From contig NZ_JXOJ01000008.1 in the NCBI RefSeq assembly GCF_001017125.1, forward strand, positions 1 through 43,702: DNA of 43,702 nt, read 5' to 3'. The notes beneath the pieces are model-generated. The model ran no database searches and had not been told where the DNA came from. It worked only from the letters and a program-made list of their open reading frames with translations. This DNA is from Methanoculleus sediminis. Lineage in GTDB: Archaea; Halobacteriota; Methanomicrobia; Methanomicrobiales; Methanoculleaceae. Each line of letters starts with the position of its first letter. The first letter of the stretch is position 1. Below, one piece after another: positions 14,437 through 32,174 of this stretch. Position numbers and translations under genes: made by a program.

Positions 14437-15531
14437 ATGAGAGTACTTATCGATATGGGCCACCCCGGCCACGTACATCTATTCAAAAATTTCATCCGGG
14501 AGATGAGATACCGAGGGCATGAAGTCAAGATCACTGCAAGGGACAAAGAGATCACGTTGCAACTCCTGCGCAGGTATGGCTTCAACTTTGTACAAACAGG
14601 TAGTGGAAAAGCAGGGGATACAAACCTGATTTGGGAATGGATCTCCCGCGGTATAGAAGTGTTTAAAATTTCCCGTAGATTTCGTCCGGATATTTTGCTT
14701 GGCGTCGGGAACCCTTCTATAGCTCACGCCGCAATGATACTGAGAAAGCCATCTGTGATATTTACCGACACAGAGCATGCAAAATTTGGAAACATGGTCA
14801 CATTTCCCTTCGCAAGTGTCATCTGTACTCCCTCGTGCTACTGTGACGACATCGGCCCGAAGCAGATCCGCTACAATGGCTACCATGAACTCGCCTATCT
14901 CCACCCAAACCGCTTCACCCCGAACCCCGCTGTCCTCACCGAACTCGGTCTTGCCGAGGGCGACCCTTTCATCATCGTTCGTTTCGTCTCATGGCAGGCG
15001 AGCCATGACGCCGGCCAGCACGGCATCCGCGACAGGGTCGGGCTCGTGAAGGCGCTGGAAGAGTATGGCCGGGTCCTGATCACCTCTGAGGGGGCGCTGC
15101 CCCCGGAGTTGCAGCCCAACCAGATCCGGGTCTCCCCGGAGAAGTTGCACGATCTGTTATATTACGCGGCGCTGTACGTGGGGGAGGGGGGCACGACGGC
15201 TTCAGAGGCTGCAATCCTTGGGACACCGTCGATCTATGTCTCTTCCCTTGTTGGTATGATGGGCAACTTCATCGACCTTGAGGAGACGTATGCCCTGCTC
15301 TACAGTTTTACCGATAGTAATGCGGCGCTGGGTAAGGCGATTGAGATCCTGAAGGATCCTGCAAGCAAGGAAAAGTGGAGGGGCAAGCGGGAGCGGTTAC
15401 TGGAGGATAAGATCGATATAACTGTCTTCATGATCTGGTTCATTGAGAATTATCCCCGGAGTTTTACAGAGATGAAGGAACACCCCGCTGTGCAGTATTC
15501 CTGTGCTTCGGTCCCGGGAGATGCATCATGA
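14437..15531 (+). CDS. DUF354 family protein (UDP-GlcNAc 2-epimerase-like fold)
   Basis: 364 residues. It belongs to DUF354 (COG1817), predicted GT-B-fold proteins in archaeal glycan clusters. Seen: MRVLIDMGHPGHVHLFKNF at the N-terminus, then PDILLGVGNPSIAHAA, and the C-terminal nucleotide-binding-like GEGGTTASEAAILGTPSIYV. GGGAG lies five bases before the ATG. The stop shares ATGA with the next gene. GC content drops in its first 400 bases (about 14.5-14.85 kb), then returns to local values, so the gene may be a recombinant. The enzymatic reaction is not known to me. Confidence 0.85.
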   Translation: MRVLIDMGHPGHVHLFKNFIREMRYRGHEVKITARDKEITLQLLRRYGFNFVQTGSGKAGDTNLIWEWISRGIEVFKISRRFRPDILLGVGNPSIAHAAMILRKPSVIFTDTEHAKFGNMVTFPFASVICTPSCYCDDIGPKQIRYNGYHELAYLHPNRFTPNPAVLTELGLAEGDPFIIVRFVSWQASHDAGQHGIRDRVGLVKALEEYGRVLITSEGALPPELQPNQIRVSPEKLHDLLYYAALYVGEGGTTASEAAILGTPSIYVSSLVGMMGNFIDLEETYALLYSFTDSNAALGKAIEILKDPASKEKWRGKRERLLEDKIDITVFMIWFIENYPRSFTEMKEHPAVQYSCASVPGDAS

Positions 15532-16055
15532 GTGCTGCTACACATGCAAGCTCTCCTACCGGTTATCTGTTCTCCCATGCTGCCACGAGATCGCACTACT
15601 TCATCGAAACCTCCGGCGAGATCAACGAGTTCATGAAGATGCACGTCATCAACCTCGCCGAACGTGGCCTCCAGCAGGTCGGCAAGTACCTCTACGGGGC
15701 GAAGATCGCCGTCATGGGTCTCGCCTGCAAGAAGAACATTAACGATCCCCGGGAGTCGCCCGCGATCAAGATCGTCGAGGAGTGTGCAAACCTTGGGGCC
15801 GATGTGCGGGTGTACGACCCGTTCGTCCTCTCCCTTGCGACGAAGGCTGGGGTGTTTGTCTCGGTCGGAAATGTTAAGGAGGCGCTCTCCGGGACGGAGT
15901 GTATGGTCTCCCTCGTGGATCATGACGTGTTCCAGGGAGTCTCTATGGCGACGGTGAAGGAGTTCATGGCCTCGCCGGTGGTCGTAGACGGGAAGAATCC
16001 GTTCGCCGGCGAAGAGGGGGTTGTGTATTTGGGGATTGGGAAAGGGCTGGTCTGA
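15528..16055 (+). pseudogene. C-terminal fragment of UDP-N-acetyl-D-mannosaminuronate dehydrogenase (WecC-like)
   Basis: 175 residues, where intact UDP-glucose/GDP-mannose dehydrogenase family members have 400-450. The fragment starts in the central helix (SGEINEFMKMHVINLAERG) and keeps the C-terminal UDP-binding domain (IAVMGLACKKNINDPRESPA, ADVRVYDPFV, MVSLVDHDVF). The N-terminal NAD-binding domain and the catalytic cysteine region are missing, so it cannot oxidise a sugar alone. The reading frame is intact and its ATG overlaps the upstream stop by four bases, so it may still be translated, perhaps as a partner subunit. I infer a remnant left by recombination in the glycan island. Confidence 0.75.
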
Positions 16056-16061
16056 ATATCG

Positions 16062-17252
16062 ATGGTTGAAATGATAGGCACAAAAGATAACTCCCCGGTG
16101 GGCCTGAAGGATAAGACCCTCCTTATCCTCAGCCCCTCCTACCCCAATGAGGATGAGTCTTTTATCGCAGAGACGTTTGTCAAGTATCAGGTCGCCGAGC
16201 TGAAACAGTACTTCAAAAAAGTCATTATTATTGCGCCGGTACTTCGTTCCTTTGGGTATCTCAAGAAAGACAGACTCTGCAAGGACTATACTTACGACAA
16301 TGTGGAGGTATACTATCCCCGGTGCATCTACATCCCTCTCCTTTGGTTGAGCAAGATCGCGATAGATAACCGACTGCAGGTGGTGGAGCGGTGTATTAAA
16401 GAGCATCATCTTCATTTTGACCTGATCCACGCCCATTTTACCTGGCCTTCCGGCTATATCGGTGTCAGGCTGAAGGAGAAATATGGAAAACCGGTAATCA
16501 CCACCATCCACGAGAACGGCGACTGGTTTGATCAGGAGGTCGGGACGGACCACCCTCTCATCAATACCGCATGGTCTGGTGCCGACGCCCTCATCAGGGT
16601 GAACAGAAAGGATGTTCCCGTTCTGAAGCGATACAATGAGCAGGTCTACTCTATTCCCAATGGGTTTTCTCCGGCCTTCCATCCTATCGACACAGCTGTT
16701 GCCAGGGAGCGACTCGGCCTGCCAAGAGATGCAAAGATCATCTTCACGTTGGGTGGGCTGATCAAAAGGAAGGGTTTCAACTACCTGATCGACGCGACGG
16801 AGCAGGTCTGCAGTCAACGGGACGACGTGCTCTGCTTTATTGGTGGAGCGGGGCCGGAGAGGGGGAGCCTTCAGGGGCAGATCGGCCGGTTGCGCCTCGG
16901 GGAGAAGGTGAAGTTGCTTGGGTCTGTGCCGAGCGACATTCTGCCACTCTGGATGAATGCCTGTGATATTTTTGTCCTGCCGAGTCTTTCGGAGAGTTTT
17001 GGAGTTGTTCAGATCGAGGCTATGGCCTGTGGCAAGCCTGTTATTTCGGCGCGAAACAGGGGGAGCGAGGAGGTTATTGTATCAGATTTGCATGGTCTGC
17101 TGGTCGAGCCCGCCGATTCCGAAGACTTGGCAGAGAAGATCCTGATGGCGCTGGACCGGGAGTGGAATCCGGAGGCGATCCTCGCGTATGCAGAGCGGTA
17201 TACATGGGATAATATCGGGAAGAAGATTGTAGATGTGTACATCAGACTCTAG
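16062..17252 (+). CDS. Family 4 glycosyltransferase
   Basis: 396 residues with the GT-B fold. The N-terminal acceptor domain includes LLILSPSYPNEDESFIAET and DLIHAHFTWPSGYIG. The C-terminal donor domain has IFTLGGLIKRKGFNYLI, GAGPERGSL and the GT4 retaining motif SLSESFGVVQIEAMACGKPV, whose two Glu residues bind the nucleotide sugar. It probably adds a sugar to a lipid-linked glycan on the cytoplasmic side. The ATG at 16062 (GTG-free context, MVEMIG) lies seven bases after the previous stop; an internal ATG four codons in is possible. GC is lower than in the core genes. Confidence 0.9.
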   Translation: MVEMIGTKDNSPVGLKDKTLLILSPSYPNEDESFIAETFVKYQVAELKQYFKKVIIIAPVLRSFGYLKKDRLCKDYTYDNVEVYYPRCIYIPLLWLSKIAIDNRLQVVERCIKEHHLHFDLIHAHFTWPSGYIGVRLKEKYGKPVITTIHENGDWFDQEVGTDHPLINTAWSGADALIRVNRKDVPVLKRYNEQVYSIPNGFSPAFHPIDTAVARERLGLPRDAKIIFTLGGLIKRKGFNYLIDATEQVCSQRDDVLCFIGGAGPERGSLQGQIGRLRLGEKVKLLGSVPSDILPLWMNACDIFVLPSLSESFGVVQIEAMACGKPVISARNRGSEEVIVSDLHGLLVEPADSEDLAEKILMALDREWNPEAILAYAERYTWDNIGKKIVDVYIRL

Positions 17253-24216: not shown

Positions 24217-25008
24217 ATGGTGGGGGTAGACCAGGCTCAAATCGACAAAATACTCTCCGGCGCGTCCTCCGAGGACCCGGAGGCACGTCTCGACACTCTC
24301 GAGAAGGAACTGGACTTCGTCAAGACCTCGATCAAGCGGCTGCTCATCGATCTCCGGGAGCGGATGAACGAACTGGACAACCCGTTCACCAGTGCCGCCG
24401 CATCGTATGCAGGGAACCGGTTCGAGCATCCGGATGTCGCCCCGGATAATGAAGATGCGGACGAAGAGATGGCCGTCACGGACGCTCTGCCCGCCGATCT
24501 CGACGACCAGGCGAACACGGCGATAGAGGGGCTTGGCAGCGGACTCTTCCCGGCCGACCTCAAGACAGCCTGCCTCCCGGAAACCGGCACGGCTGCTCTC
24601 CCGCAGGGGAAACCTGCAGGAAAACTCAAACTCCAGAAGGTTCATCGACTCTTCGAGTGGGTGCACCGGGGATGCTCCAGGTACGGGCACGAGCACATGG
24701 CAATCATGATCGACGCCTACCGGTCGATGGGCTACATCACCGAAGAGGTCTCCGACCAGATTGGCGAGATCATGCGGATGGCACCTGAAACCCGGAGAGA
24801 CGTACAGGAGATCGGCCCGAACGAGTTTGTCTCGGAGCTCTACGTCTTGAACCGGATCCTCGACCCCGACGACTCCACACTTGATAGGGACATGATCGAG
24901 GTGCTGATGCTCTCCCGGCGGGATGCGGGCGAGCAGGACGAGGGGAAAACATCTTCACAGGAACGGAATGCCGGTGATGCCTGGATTGAGTTGCTGGATA
25001 GGATATGA
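24217..25008 (+). CDS. flaCE: Archaellum cytosolic-ring protein FlaC/FlaD/FlaE type
   Basis: 263 residues. The N-terminal part (about 10-55) is a coiled coil (LDTLEKELDFVKTSIKRLL). A variable acidic linker of about 100 residues follows, then the FlaD/E domain (KLQKVHRLFEWVHRGCSRYG ... FVSELYVLNRIL). In Euryarchaeota, FlaC/D/E proteins form a cytosolic ring under the motor that receives CheF with CheY-P. It is the first gene of the motor operon. No separate flaC or flaD is present in the window, so this one protein seems to carry the function. Confidence 0.88.
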   Translation: MVGVDQAQIDKILSGASSEDPEARLDTLEKELDFVKTSIKRLLIDLRERMNELDNPFTSAAASYAGNRFEHPDVAPDNEDADEEMAVTDALPADLDDQANTAIEGLGSGLFPADLKTACLPETGTAALPQGKPAGKLKLQKVHRLFEWVHRGCSRYGHEHMAIMIDAYRSMGYITEEVSDQIGEIMRMAPETRRDVQEIGPNEFVSELYVLNRILDPDDSTLDRDMIEVLMLSRRDAGEQDEGKTSSQERNAGDAWIELLDRI

Positions 25009-25011
25009 TGG

Positions 25012-25506
25012 ATGTCGAGCGAAACCTTCACCACAGCAATGTTCCTTATCGCCGCCATCATATCGGCCGGCGTACTCATTAACGCAGTGTTTCCAGTAAT
25101 CTACACGCTCTCGAGCACGATCTCGTCGTCCTCCCACAGCGTGGACGAACGGTTGAGTACGGACGTGAAGATCGTCACGACCTACGCCAGCAGCGGGAAC
25201 CACACCGCCCGGATCTGGCTGAAGAACATCGGCACCGGGAGGGTCCCCGATGCCAGCGTCCAGAGGGCCGACATCTTCCTCGGCAGTCAGGGAGACTTCG
25301 TCCGGCTGACACGGACAACAGAACTCAACCCTGAAACCTGGAGGTACGAGATCCTCGAGGACGCCAACAACTACTGGGATCCCGGCGAGACCCTCTACGT
25401 TGAGGCGATGACCACGAAGGTTCCCGGTAAGGGGGAGATCGTCTACTTCCAGTTCGTCCTCCCCTCCGGCCTCTACCGGTCGACCACCTTCACCGCGAGT
25501 GATTGA
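25012..25506 (+). CDS. flaG: Archaellum stator-like protein FlaG
   Basis: 164 residues. One N-terminal TM helix (MFLIAAIISAGVLINAVFPV, about 10-29) is followed by a beta-sandwich ectodomain (STDVKIVTTYASSGNHTARI, LKNIGTGRVPDASVQ). FlaG and FlaF form a complex in the pseudoperiplasm that binds the S-layer and holds the motor. The RIWLKNIGTG pattern fits FlaG better than FlaF. The start lies four bases after the previous stop. N-X-S/T sequons (e.g. NHT) are present. Confidence 0.85.
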   Translation: MSSETFTTAMFLIAAIISAGVLINAVFPVIYTLSSTISSSSHSVDERLSTDVKIVTTYASSGNHTARIWLKNIGTGRVPDASVQRADIFLGSQGDFVRLTRTTELNPETWRYEILEDANNYWDPGETLYVEAMTTKVPGKGEIVYFQFVLPSGLYRSTTFTASD

Positions 25507-25508
25507 CC

Positions 25509-25976
25509 ATGAGTGCGGGACCCCTCGTCGCATCCGGAATCGGCATCTTTCTCCTGGTCGTCACCGCCTACATCCTGATCGGCGGCACCCTCACCACCAC
25601 CGAGGTGATGGTCGAAGCGCAGAGCAATCTCGCCGCCTACCAGGAGGCCCGGATGCGGACGGCGATCGCGATCCAGAATACGACCCTCGACGGCACGACC
25701 CTCTACGTCGAGGTGAAGAACACCGGGAGCGAACCGATCGTCGAGATCCCGTCCATCGACGTCTATCTCCAGAACGAAAACGAGCCGATCTACGTCCCCT
25801 ACGGGAACTGGAGCACGGTGAGCATAACCCCCGACGGAATCCACCCGGGCCAGCTCGATCCCGGCGAGACCCTCAACCTCTCCGTCACGTGCCGGGAAGA
25901 CGCCAACCTCACGTGGGTTCAGGTCGTCACCGGAAATGGGGTCTCCGGTTCGGCATACATACAGGCAGGTGAATGA
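25509..25976 (+). CDS. flaF: Archaellum S-layer-binding protein FlaF
   Basis: 155 residues. The N-terminal hydrophobic helix (LVASGIGIFLLVVTAYILIG) resembles the archaellin core, then a beta-sandwich domain includes TTLYVEVKNTGSEPIVEIPS. In known systems FlaF binds the S-layer lattice and partners FlaG. Potential N-glycosylation sites NTT, NWS, NLS and NLT are present, consistent with an external domain. It lies two bases after flaG and four before flaH, in the conserved G-F-H-I-J order. Confidence 0.85.
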   Translation: MSAGPLVASGIGIFLLVVTAYILIGGTLTTTEVMVEAQSNLAAYQEARMRTAIAIQNTTLDGTTLYVEVKNTGSEPIVEIPSIDVYLQNENEPIYVPYGNWSTVSITPDGIHPGQLDPGETLNLSVTCREDANLTWVQVVTGNGVSGSAYIQAGE

Positions 25977-25980
25977 CGAA

Positions 25981-26724
25981 ATGGCAACGAGCGAAGAAGC
26001 AAACACCAGTGTTCTCGAAATGCCCGACAAGACGATCCTCTCGACCGGAAACACCGAACTCGACAAGAAGATCGCCGACGGCCTCCCGCTCCAGTCTCTC
26101 ACCCTCATCGAGGGGGAGAACGACACCGGAAAGAGCGTGCTCACCCAGCAGATCATCTGGGGCGCCCTGAAACAGGGGTTCAACGTCGACCTCTTCTCGA
26201 CCGAGAACACGAGCAAGAGTTTCCTCACCCAGATGGAGTCGATGAGCCTCGATGTCTCCGACTACTTCGCCTGGGGCTACTTCCGGGTATTTCCCATGCA
26301 CGTCGTCGGGTTCGAGTGGACGAAAGAGAAGATGCAGGGGACGCTCGAGCGGATGATCCATTACATGGAGCAGAGCAAAGCCCAGGTGATCGTCATCGAC
26401 TCGCTCACGCTCTTCACCGAGTATGCCAAGCAGGACACGGTCCTTACGTTCTTCACGAACTGCAAGAACCTCGTCGACCACGGTAAGACCATCCTCGTAA
26501 CCCTCCACACCTACGCCTTCGTCGAGGACTCCCTCGTCCGGATTCGCTCGATCTGCGACGCCCATCTCTTCATGAAGAAGGCGCTCGTCGGCGGCAAATA
26601 CGTGATGATGCTCGAGGTCGTCAAGGTTCGCGGCGCACGAAAGACCACGGGCAATATCATCAGTTTCGAGGTTCACCCCGGGTACGGCATCAAGATCATC
26701 CCCGTCTCGGTCGCGAAGGTGTGA
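25981..26724 (+). CDS. flaH: Archaellum motor ATP-binding protein FlaH
   Basis: 247 residues with a RecA/KaiC-like fold. Walker A is GENDTGKS (about 45-52) and Walker B-like VIVIDSLTLF is near 137-146. FlaH forms a ring around the FlaI hexamer, binds ATP and regulates FlaI; it usually does not hydrolyse it well. The ATG at 25981 starts MATSEE, five bases after the flaF stop. Next comes flaI, three bases on. Confidence 0.95.
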   Translation: MATSEEANTSVLEMPDKTILSTGNTELDKKIADGLPLQSLTLIEGENDTGKSVLTQQIIWGALKQGFNVDLFSTENTSKSFLTQMESMSLDVSDYFAWGYFRVFPMHVVGFEWTKEKMQGTLERMIHYMEQSKAQVIVIDSLTLFTEYAKQDTVLTFFTNCKNLVDHGKTILVTLHTYAFVEDSLVRIRSICDAHLFMKKALVGGKYVMMLEVVKVRGARKTTGNIISFEVHPGYGIKIIPVSVAKV

Positions 26725-26727
26725 GAG

Positions 26728-28581
26728 ATGGGATCGGCGCTGGAAGCAACGGTAACCCTCCCCTTCGAGCCCGAGTTCATCGACGAGGGGAACGACTGCT
26801 ACAACAACGTGGAGTCCTGCGCACTCTACCGGATGCTCCCGGCAAACGCCCGCGACTACGTCAGGGCAAGCCCTCACCTGCTCGAATACCTCCACATCCT
26901 GCCGGTCAACACCGTCGGTATCCCGCTCTTCCTCTCGGAGTTGAAGCGGGACTTAAAATCGATGGAGAACCCGAACATCATCTACCCGGTGAACGATACG
27001 ACGTTCATTCATATCTTCCCCGACCCGGACGACGTCCGGAACTGGTACATCCCGATCGAGCCGGCGTTTCTCCACTCCGTCAAAGAGATCCTCCCGGTGA
27101 TCGAGGAGAAGTTGATCGATATGATCGATGCCCTCGAGGAGGAGCCGGTGACCGAGCAGGCACGAATCGGCGTGCTGAAGAACTTCATCCAGCAACTCGT
27201 CTACATCAAGAAGCCGGGCGAGGTGATCGACGAATCCCTGCTTGCCGGCGGGAGATCGAAAGACCTCAAACTCCGGATCAAGACCTTCCTCACCTCCGAG
27301 ATCGGCGCGTCGAAGCAACCCCAGACATCGGGGCGCCAGGAACTTGCCGACGGGCGGGTCATCCTCACGCAGCAGGAGTACAAGGCGCTCGAGTACATGA
27401 TCATCCGCGACAAGATCGAGATGGGGACGCTCAAACCGTTTCTTTCCGACAAATATATCGAGGATATCACCTGCGACGGCGTCGGACCGATCTTCATCGA
27501 GCACAAGATCTTCAAGGGGTTAAAATCGGTCATCGGGTTTCGGGATTCGCAGGAACTCGACAACTTCGTCATCAAACTCGCCGAGCGGATCAAACGGCCG
27601 CTGACGTATCGGAACCCCATCGTGGACTCGACCCTCCCCGACGGCTCGCGTATCAACATCGTCTACGGAACCGAGATCAGCAAGCACGGAAGCAACTTCA
27701 CCATCCGTAAGGTGAACGAGGTGCCCCTGAGCATCCTGCAGGTCATCGAGAGCGGGGCGTGCAACTACATGATGGCCGCCTACCTCTGGATCTGCCTCGA
27801 GTACGGGATGTCGATGTTCGTCTCCGGCGAGACCGCGAGCGGCAAGACGACTACTTTGAACGCCCTCACGACCTTCCTCCCGCCCGAGAACAAGATCGTC
27901 ACCATCGAGGACACCCCGGAACTGACCGTCCCCCACAGGAACTGGACACGCGAGGTCGCGAAAGCCAAAGGAAAGGGTGAAGGGGAAGGCTCGGAGGTCA
28001 CGATGTTCGACCTCCTCAAAGCTGCGTTGCGTCAGCGTCCGAACCAGATCCTGGTCGGTGAGATTCGTGGGGTGGAAGGGTCCGTCGCATTCTCCGCAAT
28101 GCAGACCGGTCACCCGGTGATGAGCACCTTCCACGCAGCGTCGGTCGAGAAACTGATCCAGCGTCTCTGCGGCGACCCGATCAACATCCCGAAGACCTAC
28201 GTCGACAACTTAAACCTGGTCATCATCCAGAGTGCGGTCAAACTCCCCCAGGGCGGAACCGTACGGCGGATGCTCAGCGTCAACGAACTCGTGGGCTACG
28301 ACCCCGAGACGCAGGGGTTCTCCTTCATGGCGACGTTCGTCTGGGACCCGGCGACCGATACGTTCACCTTCACCGGGAAAGGAAGCAGCTACCTGCTTGA
28401 AAACAAGATCGCAACGATGCTCGGCATACCCGAGAATCGGCGGACCGAGATCTACGATGAAGTCGATAAACGCGCCAAAATTCTTGAACGGCTTCACAAG
28501 GCGGGGTACACCCAGTTCTGGGACCTCTTCCACATGACCACGAAGATCAAGAAGCAGGGACTGCTCAACATCGAGGTGTAA
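26728..28581 (+). CDS. flaI: Archaellum motor ATPase FlaI
   Basis: 617 residues, a type II/IV secretion-family ATPase that powers both assembly and rotation. Walker A GETASGKTT is at 367-375, and the Asp/His boxes and Walker B region (LRQRPNQILVGEIRG) follow near 430-460. The N-terminal about 200 residues form the mobile domain that contacts FlaH and the membrane platform. An acidic/Gly-rich insertion (AKGKGEGEGSE) is near 415. It is longer than crenarchaeal FlaI (about 510) because of extra N-terminal sequence, which is normal for Euryarchaeota. Confidence 0.97.
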   Translation: MGSALEATVTLPFEPEFIDEGNDCYNNVESCALYRMLPANARDYVRASPHLLEYLHILPVNTVGIPLFLSELKRDLKSMENPNIIYPVNDTTFIHIFPDPDDVRNWYIPIEPAFLHSVKEILPVIEEKLIDMIDALEEEPVTEQARIGVLKNFIQQLVYIKKPGEVIDESLLAGGRSKDLKLRIKTFLTSEIGASKQPQTSGRQELADGRVILTQQEYKALEYMIIRDKIEMGTLKPFLSDKYIEDITCDGVGPIFIEHKIFKGLKSVIGFRDSQELDNFVIKLAERIKRPLTYRNPIVDSTLPDGSRINIVYGTEISKHGSNFTIRKVNEVPLSILQVIESGACNYMMAAYLWICLEYGMSMFVSGETASGKTTTLNALTTFLPPENKIVTIEDTPELTVPHRNWTREVAKAKGKGEGEGSEVTMFDLLKAALRQRPNQILVGEIRGVEGSVAFSAMQTGHPVMSTFHAASVEKLIQRLCGDPINIPKTYVDNLNLVIIQSAVKLPQGGTVRRMLSVNELVGYDPETQGFSFMATFVWDPATDTFTFTGKGSSYLLENKIATMLGIPENRRTEIYDEVDKRAKILERLHKAGYTQFWDLFHMTTKIKKQGLLNIEV

Positions 28582-28584
28582 GCG

Positions 28585-30183
28585 TTGTTTGAGGATGTGA
28601 CCGAACGGCTGCGGGAGGCAAACCAGGGGAAGATCCCGTTCGAGGAGCAGGCTGAAGCTCTCGGCGATCTCCGCTCCACCATCCTCGAGAACAAGAAGAT
28701 GGAGCAGGACCTGCTCTTCATGTACACCTACATGGCCGCGATCACCACATCGACCGTGACCCGGCCGGAGATCTTCCAGTACACCTCCGAGCGGTTCGAG
28801 TACATCCCGTCGCGCTACATAGCAAAGGTGCAGCGCCTGGTCGCCGGGTGGGGTCAGAATTATTCCAACGCCCTCCGGGCGGTCGCGGAGCGGTGCCGGA
28901 ACGGAACCCTCCAGAGCATGCTCAACCGCTACGCCAACTCCATCGACTCCGGTGTCCCGGACGACGATTTCATCACCACGGAACTCTCGAGCATCAGGAG
29001 CATCTACCGGAACTCGTTCGAGCAGGGGATCGAACTTCTGAAGAAGTGGGGCGACGCCTACATCGCGATGCTCCTTTCGGGAGCGCTCGTCGCAATCATC
29101 ATCATGATCTCGGTGGCCATCTACGCCCCCGACGGGATCGAGTCGGCGCTGAACTCATCCTACTTCATCATTCTCGCAATATCGATCTTCGGCCTCGTGA
29201 TCATGTACCGTGCCGTCCCCGACGACCCCCGCACGCACGGCCTTGTCGAGATCTGCTCACGAGAGCAGAGTGTCGTCCGGCGGCTGGAGCGCCTTATCCT
29301 GCCGATAACCGCCGCGATCGGGCTGATGCTCATCCTCGTCGGCGCCAACGCGGGCATCATCTTCCTGCTTGTCGGCCTGCTCCTGATGCCGCTCGGGGTC
29401 ATCGGCTATATCGACGACGCAAACGTCGTCAACCGGGACAACGATTTCGCCACGTTCATCCGGGCCCTCGGGTCGATCATGGGGGGCAAAGGCATCACCA
29501 CCGGCGACGCGCTCCAGGAGGTCGACAGGAAGTCGCTCTTCCACCTGGAGCCGTTCATCAACTCGGTCTCGTCGAAGCTGAACCTGGGGCTCGACGAAGC
29601 CGGGAGCTGGAAGAAGTTCATCGGGGAGTCCGGCAGTTACCTGATCTACAAGTACATGAACATCTTCCGGGACGCGGTGGCTCTCGGCGGGTCGCCCGAC
29701 GCGATCGGAAAGATCGTCGGTTCGTCGATGCTAGAGCAGGTGCTGCTCCGGAGGAAGCGCGACATGATGGTGAAGGGGTTCGTCGTCCTGCTTGTGCCGA
29801 TGCACGGCGCGATGATCGGCATCTTCGTCTTCCTCTTCGAGATCCTCCTCTCGATGTCGCGTGCCGTGACGGAGGTGATGGATCGTTTTGCAGAGTCCTC
29901 GGCGGCACTCACGGGAGGAACGTCATCGATCGGCAGCTCGATGGCAACGTCATTGAACATCTTCGTAAACTTCCCCGAGGACGTAATGCGAACCTACGTG
30001 ATAACGATCCTCTTAATGCTGACCATTGCAAACATGCTTGCAGGAAAGATTGTCATGGGCGGCGACCGATACCTGTACTACTTCTTCGCAAGCCTGCTCT
30101 GCGTGGCAACCGGTGCCATCTACATCATTGCACCGATCGTCGTGAGCGCATTCTTTAACATTCCAGCATTCGTGGAGGTGTGA
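28585..30183 (+). CDS. flaJ: Archaellum membrane platform protein FlaJ
   Basis: 532 residues. A cytoplasmic N-terminal region is followed by TM groups around 165-215, 230-275 and 400-530, with two TadC/GspF-like cytoplasmic domains between. FlaJ is the inner-membrane platform on which FlaI acts. The start is TTG at 28585 with GAGGTG six bases before it; GTG at 28597 is an alternative. The stop shares TGATG with the next gene. The conserved operon order and length leave little doubt. Confidence 0.95.
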   Translation: MFEDVTERLREANQGKIPFEEQAEALGDLRSTILENKKMEQDLLFMYTYMAAITTSTVTRPEIFQYTSERFEYIPSRYIAKVQRLVAGWGQNYSNALRAVAERCRNGTLQSMLNRYANSIDSGVPDDDFITTELSSIRSIYRNSFEQGIELLKKWGDAYIAMLLSGALVAIIIMISVAIYAPDGIESALNSSYFIILAISIFGLVIMYRAVPDDPRTHGLVEICSREQSVVRRLERLILPITAAIGLMLILVGANAGIIFLLVGLLLMPLGVIGYIDDANVVNRDNDFATFIRALGSIMGGKGITTGDALQEVDRKSLFHLEPFINSVSSKLNLGLDEAGSWKKFIGESGSYLIYKYMNIFRDAVALGGSPDAIGKIVGSSMLEQVLLRRKRDMMVKGFVVLLVPMHGAMIGIFVFLFEILLSMSRAVTEVMDRFAESSAALTGGTSSIGSSMATSLNIFVNFPEDVMRTYVITILLMLTIANMLAGKIVMGGDRYLYYFFASLLCVATGAIYIIAPIVVSAFFNIPAFVEV

Positions 30184-31319
30184 TGTTGAGAGAAAATATA
30201 CGTCGTCCGCTTCTGTTTCTGATAACCGTCGGTACCGGCTCGCTAATCATCGTCCTCGACGCAACCGCCGAGGTCGTCATCGCAGGCACCGTGCTCGCAG
30301 GGTTCCTCGCGCTCGTCGTCACCGGGGCGCTCGACCTTGCCGAACTGAAACCGTCGAGGCTGCGCACCGCGCTCCGGGAGCGCGGAAAGAAGGTACAACC
30401 CGATGCGCCGGTCGAAAAACCGGGTGCACCGGCAGAGAGCCCGGTCTCCACCCCAAGACGCCCGTTCTCCGGGATTGATCTCTCCAGCATCTCCGGTATG
30501 CTCGGGACCTTCAAGGCATCGGCCCTGGAAGCGATCGCACATGCCCGCGCTCCTGAACGAGAGAAGAAGAGCAGCATTGAGCAGATTGACGCCATGCTCG
30601 ACCAGACGGTCGAGGGGACGGTGCCCGACCCGGCCATAACCCCTGCCCCGCCGAAGGCCGGCGGAAACACGGCCGATCCCCTTGCTTCGCTCGCAGACCT
30701 CGACATCGACTCGCTGGAGGGGCTCGACATCGACGGCGAATCATCCGGTCCGGGGACGATGTTTGAGCCCGACCAGATCTCCCTGCTCTCGGTGGAGGAT
30801 GCGGATGCCATATCGGATATTCTCAAGTCGCACCAGAGCGAGCTCGAAGACCTCGATATTTCACCCGGCATCGATCTTGCCGGGAATGCAGGCGAATCCG
30901 ATGCCGCCCTCCCGCCGGTAGCAGCAGACGTCCCTGAACTGCCCGGAGACGACGGCGTGCCGGACATGAACGCGCTGAGCGACGAACTCTCCACGCTCGA
31001 CGAACTGGATCTCGACGAGATCGAGATCGAGGGCGAAGAAGAGGAAGAAGATGAGGCCGACGCTGATGAACCCGTCCCGGAAGAAGACATTCTCGGGGAG
31101 ATAGAGGAGGAGACGAAAGAGGACTTCGACATGGTCTCCTTTGCGTCCGGCGGCGCGGTCGAGGACGACCTGATCACCGCACTCAAAGCCGACGCCAAGA
31201 AGAAGAAGTTCGTGGAGGATATCAGCCTGATCCGCGAACTGAAAGGGGAGACGTTCCATGCGAAAGATCTGGCGACGGAACTCGAGGACGTCCTCACGGC
31301 AATGAAATCACAACGATGA
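30183..31319 (+). CDS. Two-helix membrane protein with acidic cytoplasmic tail, archaellum operon
   Basis: 378 residues. Two hydrophobic helices near the N-terminus (LLFLITVGTGSLIIVLD and VIAGTVLAGFLALVVTGALD) are followed by a long low-complexity, strongly acidic region (about 140-315, for example IEIEGEEEEEDEADADE) and a short helical C-terminal domain (EDDLITALKADAKKKKFVED to the end). I do not recognise a family. It is translationally coupled to flaJ through TGATG and followed by cheF, so a linker between the motor platform and the switch machinery is a reasonable guess. Confidence 0.8.
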   Translation: MLRENIRRPLLFLITVGTGSLIIVLDATAEVVIAGTVLAGFLALVVTGALDLAELKPSRLRTALRERGKKVQPDAPVEKPGAPAESPVSTPRRPFSGIDLSSISGMLGTFKASALEAIAHARAPEREKKSSIEQIDAMLDQTVEGTVPDPAITPAPPKAGGNTADPLASLADLDIDSLEGLDIDGESSGPGTMFEPDQISLLSVEDADAISDILKSHQSELEDLDISPGIDLAGNAGESDAALPPVAADVPELPGDDGVPDMNALSDELSTLDELDLDEIEIEGEEEEEDEADADEPVPEEDILGEIEEETKEDFDMVSFASGGAVEDDLITALKADAKKKKFVEDISLIRELKGETFHAKDLATELEDVLTAMKSQR

Positions 31320-31367
31320 TGATAGCGCGCAGAATACAGTAATACAGAGGAGACGAGGGAGGCAAAG

Positions 31368-32174
31368 ATGAAATCAGTTCCAATAAAAGTCGAGCACGAA
31401 GGCAAGTGGATCCCGACGACAATGGGCATCGCTGAGGATCGTTTCCGCATCGATGCCCCTCTCAATCAGGAGATCCCATACAAATCCGTGGTCGATCTCG
31501 AGGAGAAGAAGAACCAGGTGATCATCACCACCGGGGCGAACGGCGAGGGTGTCTACCGTATCGCGTCGGTCGAGAAGGTCCTCCTGGTCTTAAAGAAGTT
31601 CGTCATCACCCAGGCGAGCGCCTACCGGCTGAACGCTTTCTTCATGTCGCCCGCAATCCGCGGGGGGGTGCTCGTCCAGAACGCGCAATGGGAGAAAGGC
31701 GCGATCGCCGTCATGAAGACAGGCATCTGGTTCGTCAGCCAGGAGAAACAGGTCTGCATCCCTCTCGACGAGGTGACCGGTATCGAAGTTACGTCCCGGG
31801 AGATCCAGGAGAAGAATCTCGACGTCGTGAAGATTGACCACCTCATCGAGAACGAACTCGTGACGAGCTTCGTACTCTGCCCGCTGACGACGCTCCAGGT
31901 TCTCTACAACTTCCTCAAAGAGGCGACACGCGATACCGAGGTCAGCGAAGAGATCGATCCCCTGACGGGGCAGGTGGCCATGCTGGTCTACAGCGGGATG
32001 GATTCGAGCGCCATCGAGAACATGCTGAAACTCTCGCACAAAGACCTCGACGTCATCTATGAGAAACTCCTCGGCTCGGGGCTCGCCGAAGTACTCTACG
32101 TCAGAAAAGAAGTACAACTAACCCCAAAAGGCGTCAGATACATATCAGAGTCTGTAAAATCTCCAATGGATTAA
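31368..32174 (+). CDS. cheF: Archaeal chemotaxis adaptor CheF
   Basis: 268 residues, matching the archaea-only CheF family (PF04283, DUF439). CheF binds phosphorylated CheY and passes the signal to FlaC/D/E at the motor base. Seen: a strand-rich N-terminal half with WIPTTMGIAEDRFRID and KTGIWFVSQEKQVCIPLDEV, and a C-terminal winged-helix-like part (SSAIENMLKLSHKDLDVIYE). GGGAGG lies about five bases before the ATG. It sits exactly between the motor operon and cheY, as its role predicts. Confidence 0.92.
   Translation: MKSVPIKVEHEGKWIPTTMGIAEDRFRIDAPLNQEIPYKSVVDLEEKKNQVIITTGANGEGVYRIASVEKVLLVLKKFVITQASAYRLNAFFMSPAIRGGVLVQNAQWEKGAIAVMKTGIWFVSQEKQVCIPLDEVTGIEVTSREIQEKNLDVVKIDHLIENELVTSFVLCPLTTLQVLYNFLKEATRDTEVSEEIDPLTGQVAMLVYSGMDSSAIENMLKLSHKDLDVIYEKLLGSGLAEVLYVRKEVQLTPKGVRYISESVKSPMD

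Follow-up and report, generated by a model that had tools for sequence, protein, structure and literature searches.

What is the gene that begins on the stop codon of flaJ in Methanoculleus sediminis, and is it part of the archaellum motor? It lies in a window of 43,702 nucleotides (the whole stretch of DNA analysed; contig NZ_JXOJ01000008.1), inside a cluster of archaellum genes and ahead of cheF. We call the gene X.

The gene and its protein

A first-pass annotation had placed X between flaJ and cheF, and this is borne out: the ATG at 30183 shares its A with the flaJ stop codon TGA (30181-30183), and cheF starts next, at 31368 (Table 1). A TTG at 30186 (377 aa) would be an equally likely start, because most homologues of the same genus start at the matching codon. 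X is single copy in its own genome, and a 436-aa minus-strand ORF that overlaps it (30155-31465) is taken as a by-product of composition. In the excerpted text of Desmond et al. 2007 (PMC1914349), fla1 clusters have F before G and fla2 clusters G before F. The window cluster is fla2 because its ArlG-like gene precedes its ArlF-like gene, both names being best NCBIfam matches under the curated cut-offs. Elsewhere in the window, the one part of a nucleotide-sugar dehydrogenase matched at 15528-16055 is its C-terminal UDP-binding domain (PF03720), so that this is probably a gene remnant; a glycosyltransferase gene follows next, at 16062.

Table 1. Archaellum cluster of the window and sequence features of gene X
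Feature	Position	Strand	Remarks
flaCE/arlCDE-like	24217..25008	+	PF04659, 22.9 bits, cut-off 21
flaG/arlG-like	25012..25506	+	best NCBIfam match NF052591 (ArlG), 37.7 bits, below cut-off 110; PF01917 over cut-off
flaF/arlF-like	25503..25976	+	NF052590, E 2.3e-10, 40.7 bits, below cut-off 110
flaH/arlH	25936..26724	+	start uncertain
flaI/arlI, motor ATPase	26728..28581	+	
flaJ/arlJ, platform protein, arl2 type	28585..30183	+	NF004703, 769 bits
Shine-Dalgarno-like GGAGGTG	30174..30180	+	end of flaJ, ahead of X start; read from the sequence
X (unnamed gene)	30183..31319	+	378 aa, stop included; ORF open
two hydrophobic segments of X (about aa 9-55)	30207..30347	+	acidic residues between; hydropathy
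amphipathic motif of X (about aa 128-146), KIDxxLD-like	30564..30620	+	by eye, in alignments, most members
acidic low-complexity linker of X (aa 150-320)	30630..31142	+	net charge -52
short helix-forming motif inside X linker (aa 204-222)	30792..30848	+	pLDDT block means 73 and 80, aa 201-220
C-terminal helical core domain of X (aa 328-376)	31164..31310	+	part that families have in common, about 50 aa
cheF	31368..32174	+	PF04283; downstream of X

The protein also has the layout first described for it, namely two N-terminal hydrophobic segments, an acidic stretch and a helical C-terminus, as hydropathy, composition and structure model respectively agree. The hydrophobic segments span about aa 8-29 and 30-55, and the 171 linker residues comprise 32% D+E and 1.8% K+R; the pI of the whole protein is 4.08. 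Since basic residues flank the hydrophobic pair on both outer sides, both ends are predicted to be cytoplasmic. By hydropathy, X thus has the ArlX-like combination of an N-terminal transmembrane (TM) segment and a cytoplasmic domain, in an orientation deduced from charge. The anchor is not universal, as one member of 139 aa (L101) has no TM segment. AlphaFold2 modelled the full-length protein poorly (mean pLDDT 47.8, mostly low in the linker), and for that reason no interface can be argued from the model. Modelled alone, the C-terminal 64 residues reach a mean pLDDT of 65, with block means of 70-80 for residues 21-60, and are predicted to be helices with low to middling confidence.

X is a real, unnamed family, for which look-ups in family databases gave weak matches at best. 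No Pfam family matched the window protein at E up to 1, PF04283 (CheF) does not match it, and the only NCBIfam match was sub-threshold (E 0.13). FimV models were absent from the NCBIfam matches of X (E up to 1) and of 10 homologues (E up to 5). PF06305, a LapA-type family with two TM segments, matched two of 35 members (best E 2.2e-6) and not the window protein, which we take as generic resemblance between proteins with two TM segments. A sequence search of the PDB returned two de novo designs only (E 0.5-0.8). Comparison of the X core by hhalign with FlaCE, FlaG, FlaF, FlaH, FlaI, FlaJ and CheF gave 0.1-1.2%, the value for FlaCE (0.3%) indicating no similarity.

Among the matches listed in a search of open-access full text, no paper was on X by its title or the start of its abstract. 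Makarova et al. 2016 (PMC4858521), in the sections available, name seven universal archaellum components and survey their conserved neighbours; X is outside these seven and may figure as an unnamed arCOG in the supplementary neighbourhood tables. The genome paper on Archaeoglobus profundus (PMC3035285, in extract) puts the fla cluster of A. fulgidus at AF_1048-AF_1055, eight genes that would stop at flaJ. The structure and binding of CheF and the archaellum of Chloroflexota are the subjects of PMC9126983 and PMC12488501, respectively, both likewise in extract.

Distribution of X in and beyond the order

A single-sequence search with X found a homologue in 74 of 100 genomes, its own included. 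In loci L001-L064 (64 in all), collected by means of the X match itself, FlaJ lies beside X without exception and cheF follows X in 60 (not in L045, L055, L063 and L064). A 35-row X profile, which matches 103 of 390 phylum genomes, was set by hand against a FlaJ search of the same 390; among the 106 genomes of the order, 88 have X and FlaJ, 17 have neither, and one (G406) has no X and, where a contig ends, a fragment of FlaJ. The first-pass annotation had set its sights on Methanomicrobiales, and there X is indeed kept behind flaJ across the order, so that the absence from close relatives that would have told against its idea is not what is seen; the same arrangement recurs in other families, however, and the range of X is the wider one of arl2-type archaella.

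X is broken in three of the 64 loci. In L009 (also L081) and L043 (also L124), from two genomes, it is split between frames into two overlapping ORFs, by frameshift or sequencing error. In L060 (2447-5640; genome G040) an insert breaks X in the acidic linker, a natural insertion mutant, and carries a 388-aa minus-strand ORF that looks transposase-like by eye.

Outside the order, the 35-row profile matches 15 genomes, 13 of them in family f9, mostly through a short protein behind FlaJ. A wider profile (A4), run genome-wide, matches 126 of the 390 genomes at E <= 0.01. Four weak matches were set aside (G111, G140, G148 and G184; E 0.005-0.009), of which G140 has no FlaJ match. A strong X match is present in 122 of 390 genomes, and all 122 also have a FlaJ match. 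G100, one of the 15 genomes matched by the 35-row profile outside the order (E 1.4e-4), was not counted as a holder of X, since its match is broken by seven stop codons and it has neither FlaJ nor an A4 match. X occurs at one place per genome, except in G105 (where two contigs carry one and the same stretch) and G122 (which has another, weak place).

What the families have in common is the C-terminal core, for which hhalign gave 98.4% (E 6e-15) between members inside and outside the order. An HMM of this domain was seeded from the order and early outside members, with 15 of 48 seed sequences dropped because a motif search missed them, and retrained on its own matches. Searched against 6,247 ORFs from 176 loci (inclusion E < 1e-3), it includes 116 ORFs, 112 of them in the set lying behind FlaJ. 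The other four are copies of X elsewhere or adjoining: the copy with the insertion (L060), one beside an unscored FlaJ fragment (L074), one between FlaH and FlaI (L078) and a 78-aa ORF under the length limit used (L172). The HMM matches 112 of 138 arl2 loci (98 of the matched loci distinct), and in 105 of the 112 the first possible start of the ORF overlaps FlaJ or lies no more than 40 nt behind it. Loci up to L091 were mostly collected by their X match, L092-L176 mainly by FlaJ; among the 49 arl2 loci of the latter set, 25 match.

The misses in that set are L093, L100, L105-L110, L118-L121, L158, L160, L162, L165 and L168-L175. Two of these end inside FlaJ (L120, L121) and L172 has the short copy. 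The others belong to Methanosarcina-like second clusters, genus g85 and family f10, in which the protein in this slot is diverged and without TM segment (best 19-residue hydropathy at most 0.89 in the Methanosarcina-like second clusters and f10). In fifteen loci (L093, L100, L118, L119, L158, L160, L162, L165, L168-L171, L173-L175), which are Methanosarcina-like second archaellum clusters and g85 clusters, this TM-less protein has a basic, amphipathic-looking N-terminus and a C-terminus that is perhaps related to X. The second-cluster proteins are possible relatives of X by sequence comparison (hhalign 80.6% against X from outside the order, 16.3% against all X). The slot proteins of f10 were not counted as X (29.3% against all X, 7.3% against X from outside the order); the weak A4 match in G184 (E 0.005) is such a slot protein, and that in G148 lies elsewhere. 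In the f10 loci L105-L110 the protein behind FlaJ is acidic, and the next ORF in L105, L106, L108 and L110 is response-regulator-like (Pfam-checked in L105 and L106, with HEAT repeats in L106); five of the six genomes have weak CheF matches elsewhere.

G205 carries X between FlaH and FlaI (L078, 6604-7260), which ties X to the cluster and not to flaJ alone. In L066 and L076, from two genomes of family f9, an ORF of 222-230 aa with a lipoprotein-like start, judged by eye, separates FlaJ from X.

X follows the arl2 type of archaellum

In the genomes examined, X belongs to arl2 clusters and is absent without them. Two FlaJ models, NF004703 and NF004704, tell arl1 from arl2. By hand count, an arl2-type FlaJ scores over the NF004703 cut-off in 127 genomes, and X is present in 119 of them. 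The eight without it (G197, G248, G251, G254, G293, G298, G307, G383) all belong to genera g79 and g85 of family f8, and their FlaJ loci (L100, L118, L119, L168-L170, L173, L174) hold the diverged TM-less protein. The C-terminal HMM matched none of 36 arl1 loci (35 distinct, as L116 and L155 are one place); L112, L113, L116 and L117 are arl1 loci and not another pilus type. Five genomes (G239, G123, G129, G170, G233) own both an arl1 and an arl2 cluster; in these, X lies behind the FlaJ of the arl2 cluster and nowhere else.

The contrast also runs through closely related genomes. In family f9, X is present in 16 genomes, 15 with a FlaJ over the cut-off and one (G260) in which a fragment of FlaJ adjoins X, and in none of the 18 with only a low-scoring FlaJ, whose arl1 label partly derives from the low NF004703 score by itself where genomes fall outside the two-model test. 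The same contrast is seen among the sampled genomes inside genera g57, g61 and g36 of f9 and g56 and g43 of f8. Contrasts that recur inside genera are not easily put down to common descent alone, although related genomes are not independent. Makarova et al. 2016 (PMC4858521, in the sections available) describe the replacement of archaellum loci in Archaeoglobales, which would fit the way X tracks arl2 inside genera. Taken together, X goes with the arl2 motor and is missing with arl1 in the genomes examined, and is probably an overlooked motor part. It could serve as a marker to tell arl2 from arl1 machines.

Four arl1 loci of family f13 (L114, L115, L131, L132) have a MinD-like gene directly behind FlaJ; the assignment was Pfam-checked in L114 only, where the product has an acidic stretch near its C-terminus.

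X in genomes that lack a CheF match

With the window CheF as query, 93 of 109 tested genomes match (69 of 80 and 24 of 29), a single-protein search by which a diverged CheF could be missed. Thirteen of the 16 genomes with no CheF match (called CheF-less here) have X (G041, G048, G056, G061, G066, G071, G090, G113, G128, G205, G207, G327, G414), nine of them at least 90% complete; in G066 it is an N-terminal piece. The remaining three, G184, G197 and G254, have neither a CheF match nor a strong X match. A CheW-domain search in 29 genomes found none in six (G056, G061, G071, G090, G205, G414), of which G056, G205 and G414 are at least 90% complete; the genome of G205 is a single contig. In addition, neither in family f9 nor in Methanosarcina-like genomes is CheF a neighbour of X at its loci. 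The first-pass annotation had proposed a tether from FlaJ to a FlaCE/CheF ring; with 13 of the 109 tested genomes keeping X and lacking a CheF match, a need for CheF is not borne out.

Possible functions of X

We see an even chance that X is a membrane-anchored cytoplasmic tether or scaffold, an uncharacterised accessory part of the arl2 (fla2) archaella of the window's phylum, because it joins an anchor, a charged arm and a small helical end in one protein and is strictly tied to the motor cluster. Homology of the core between families and the presence of X in CheF-less genomes also speak for this reading. One or two N-terminal helices would anchor X in the cytoplasmic membrane, and the long, flexible acidic linker would hold the small helical C-terminal domain in the cytoplasm. 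X could then hold soluble parts (ArlH/ArlI, the ArlCE ring) close to the platform ArlJ, and would provide the ArlCDE ring with the membrane anchor it is missing, a role ascribed to ArlX in Crenarchaeota. We infer the cytoplasmic topology, the binding partners and the tether function. According to the passages available of PMC8978795, ArlCDE has no membrane segment like that of ArlX, and on this account its anchor has been proposed to be the polar cap. Against a tether stand the lack of a TM segment in member L101 and in the diverged slot proteins, the poor structure model, and the fact that arl1 archaella manage without X. The more general idea that X is a new component with a link to the base of the archaellum, with which the annotation of X began, is upheld by the arl2 linkage and the position behind flaJ.

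On balance we lean against a bolder version, put forward tentatively, in which X would be a core part of euryarchaeal arl2 archaella that has escaped notice, acting as the membrane anchor of the ring or as a stator tether on a flexible acidic arm. If true, it would account for the torque resistance of a ring that has no membrane helices, and for the difference between arl2 and arl1 motors. X is a concrete candidate for the anchoring of the euryarchaeal cytosolic ring and for the link between motor and polar cap. It is found in genera for which genetic tools exist, e.g., Methanosarcina.

Bacterial FimV/HubP proteins have a membrane helix, an acidic low-complexity cytoplasmic stretch and a small C-terminal domain. 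X shares this gross anatomy and might, built like them, act as a polar landmark at which motors (and chemosensory arrays or the polar cap) are collected. We regard such a polar organiser as unlikely. No FimV model was among the NCBIfam matches, and X persists where neither CheF nor CheW is matched. In its favour, the parts available of PMC5517150 and PMC8978795 do not name the protein that builds the polar cap in Euryarchaeota; a polar cap is described, however, in the fla1-bearing Pyrococcus, whereas X is limited to arl2. MinD4 affects the positioning of archaella in Haloferax (PMC11588486, in extract), and a MinD-like gene lies behind FlaJ in 4 of the 36 arl1 loci, all of family f13, but this is another gene in another lineage.

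Translational coupling would be accounted for if X inserted with the platform protein or stabilised it, and the X ORF does overlap or touch the end of flaJ in most loci; Sulfolobus ArlJ, according to the sections available of PMC8978795, is unstable without ArlX. Such an assembly or stability factor for FlaJ seems distinctly improbable in view of the position of X between FlaH and FlaI in G205 and the intervening ORF in L066 and L076, and it is the C-terminus that is kept from family to family, rather than the membrane part.

We give very little credence to CheF/CheY docking, a chemotaxis version of the first-pass idea in which the acidic linker recruits CheF to the motor: CheF lies next to X in 60 of the 64 order loci, themselves fetched through X, and the median D+E fraction of the linker is 0.167 (0.103-0.218) in seven CheF-less order sequences vs 0.29 (0.192-0.411) in 72 others (five split or partial sequences left out, and L184, at 0.192 among the 72, belonging with the seven as it is from the CheF-less G327), but X is kept in 13 CheF-less genomes and unlinked to cheF in other families, the eight CheF-less sequences span four genera, the ranges overlap, CheF-bearing congeners of L184 (L183, L185, L194) are equally low (0.196-0.205), and a profile of the middle segment failed to separate the two groups. 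A less acidic linker where CheF is absent is a weak trend.

Comparison with known systems

Bacterial FimV/HubP resemble X in their TM segment, acidic low-complexity cytoplasmic region and small C-terminal domain, and in their association with type IV pilus-like machines; they differ in being bacterial, and no FimV model is among the NCBIfam matches of X and its homologues. The ArlCDE ring proteins are, like X, cytoplasmic and fast-evolving components of the archaellum, but have no TM segment, and FlaCE scored 0.3% against the X core in hhalign. A further parallel in design is ArlX (FlaX) of Crenarchaeota, which, in the literature extracts available, is a predicted membrane-anchored protein with a cytoplasmic part, is encoded in a fla2-type cluster, and is the counterpart of FlaCDE whose cytosolic domain forms a ring. 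Compared by description, X differs in that it coexists with FlaCE, lies behind flaJ, and has an acidic linker and a small C-terminal domain of its own. Because ArlX is regarded as homologous to FlaCDE (PMC4858521, in the sections available) and X is unlike FlaCE, X would be the counterpart of ArlX by role only, working alongside FlaCE.
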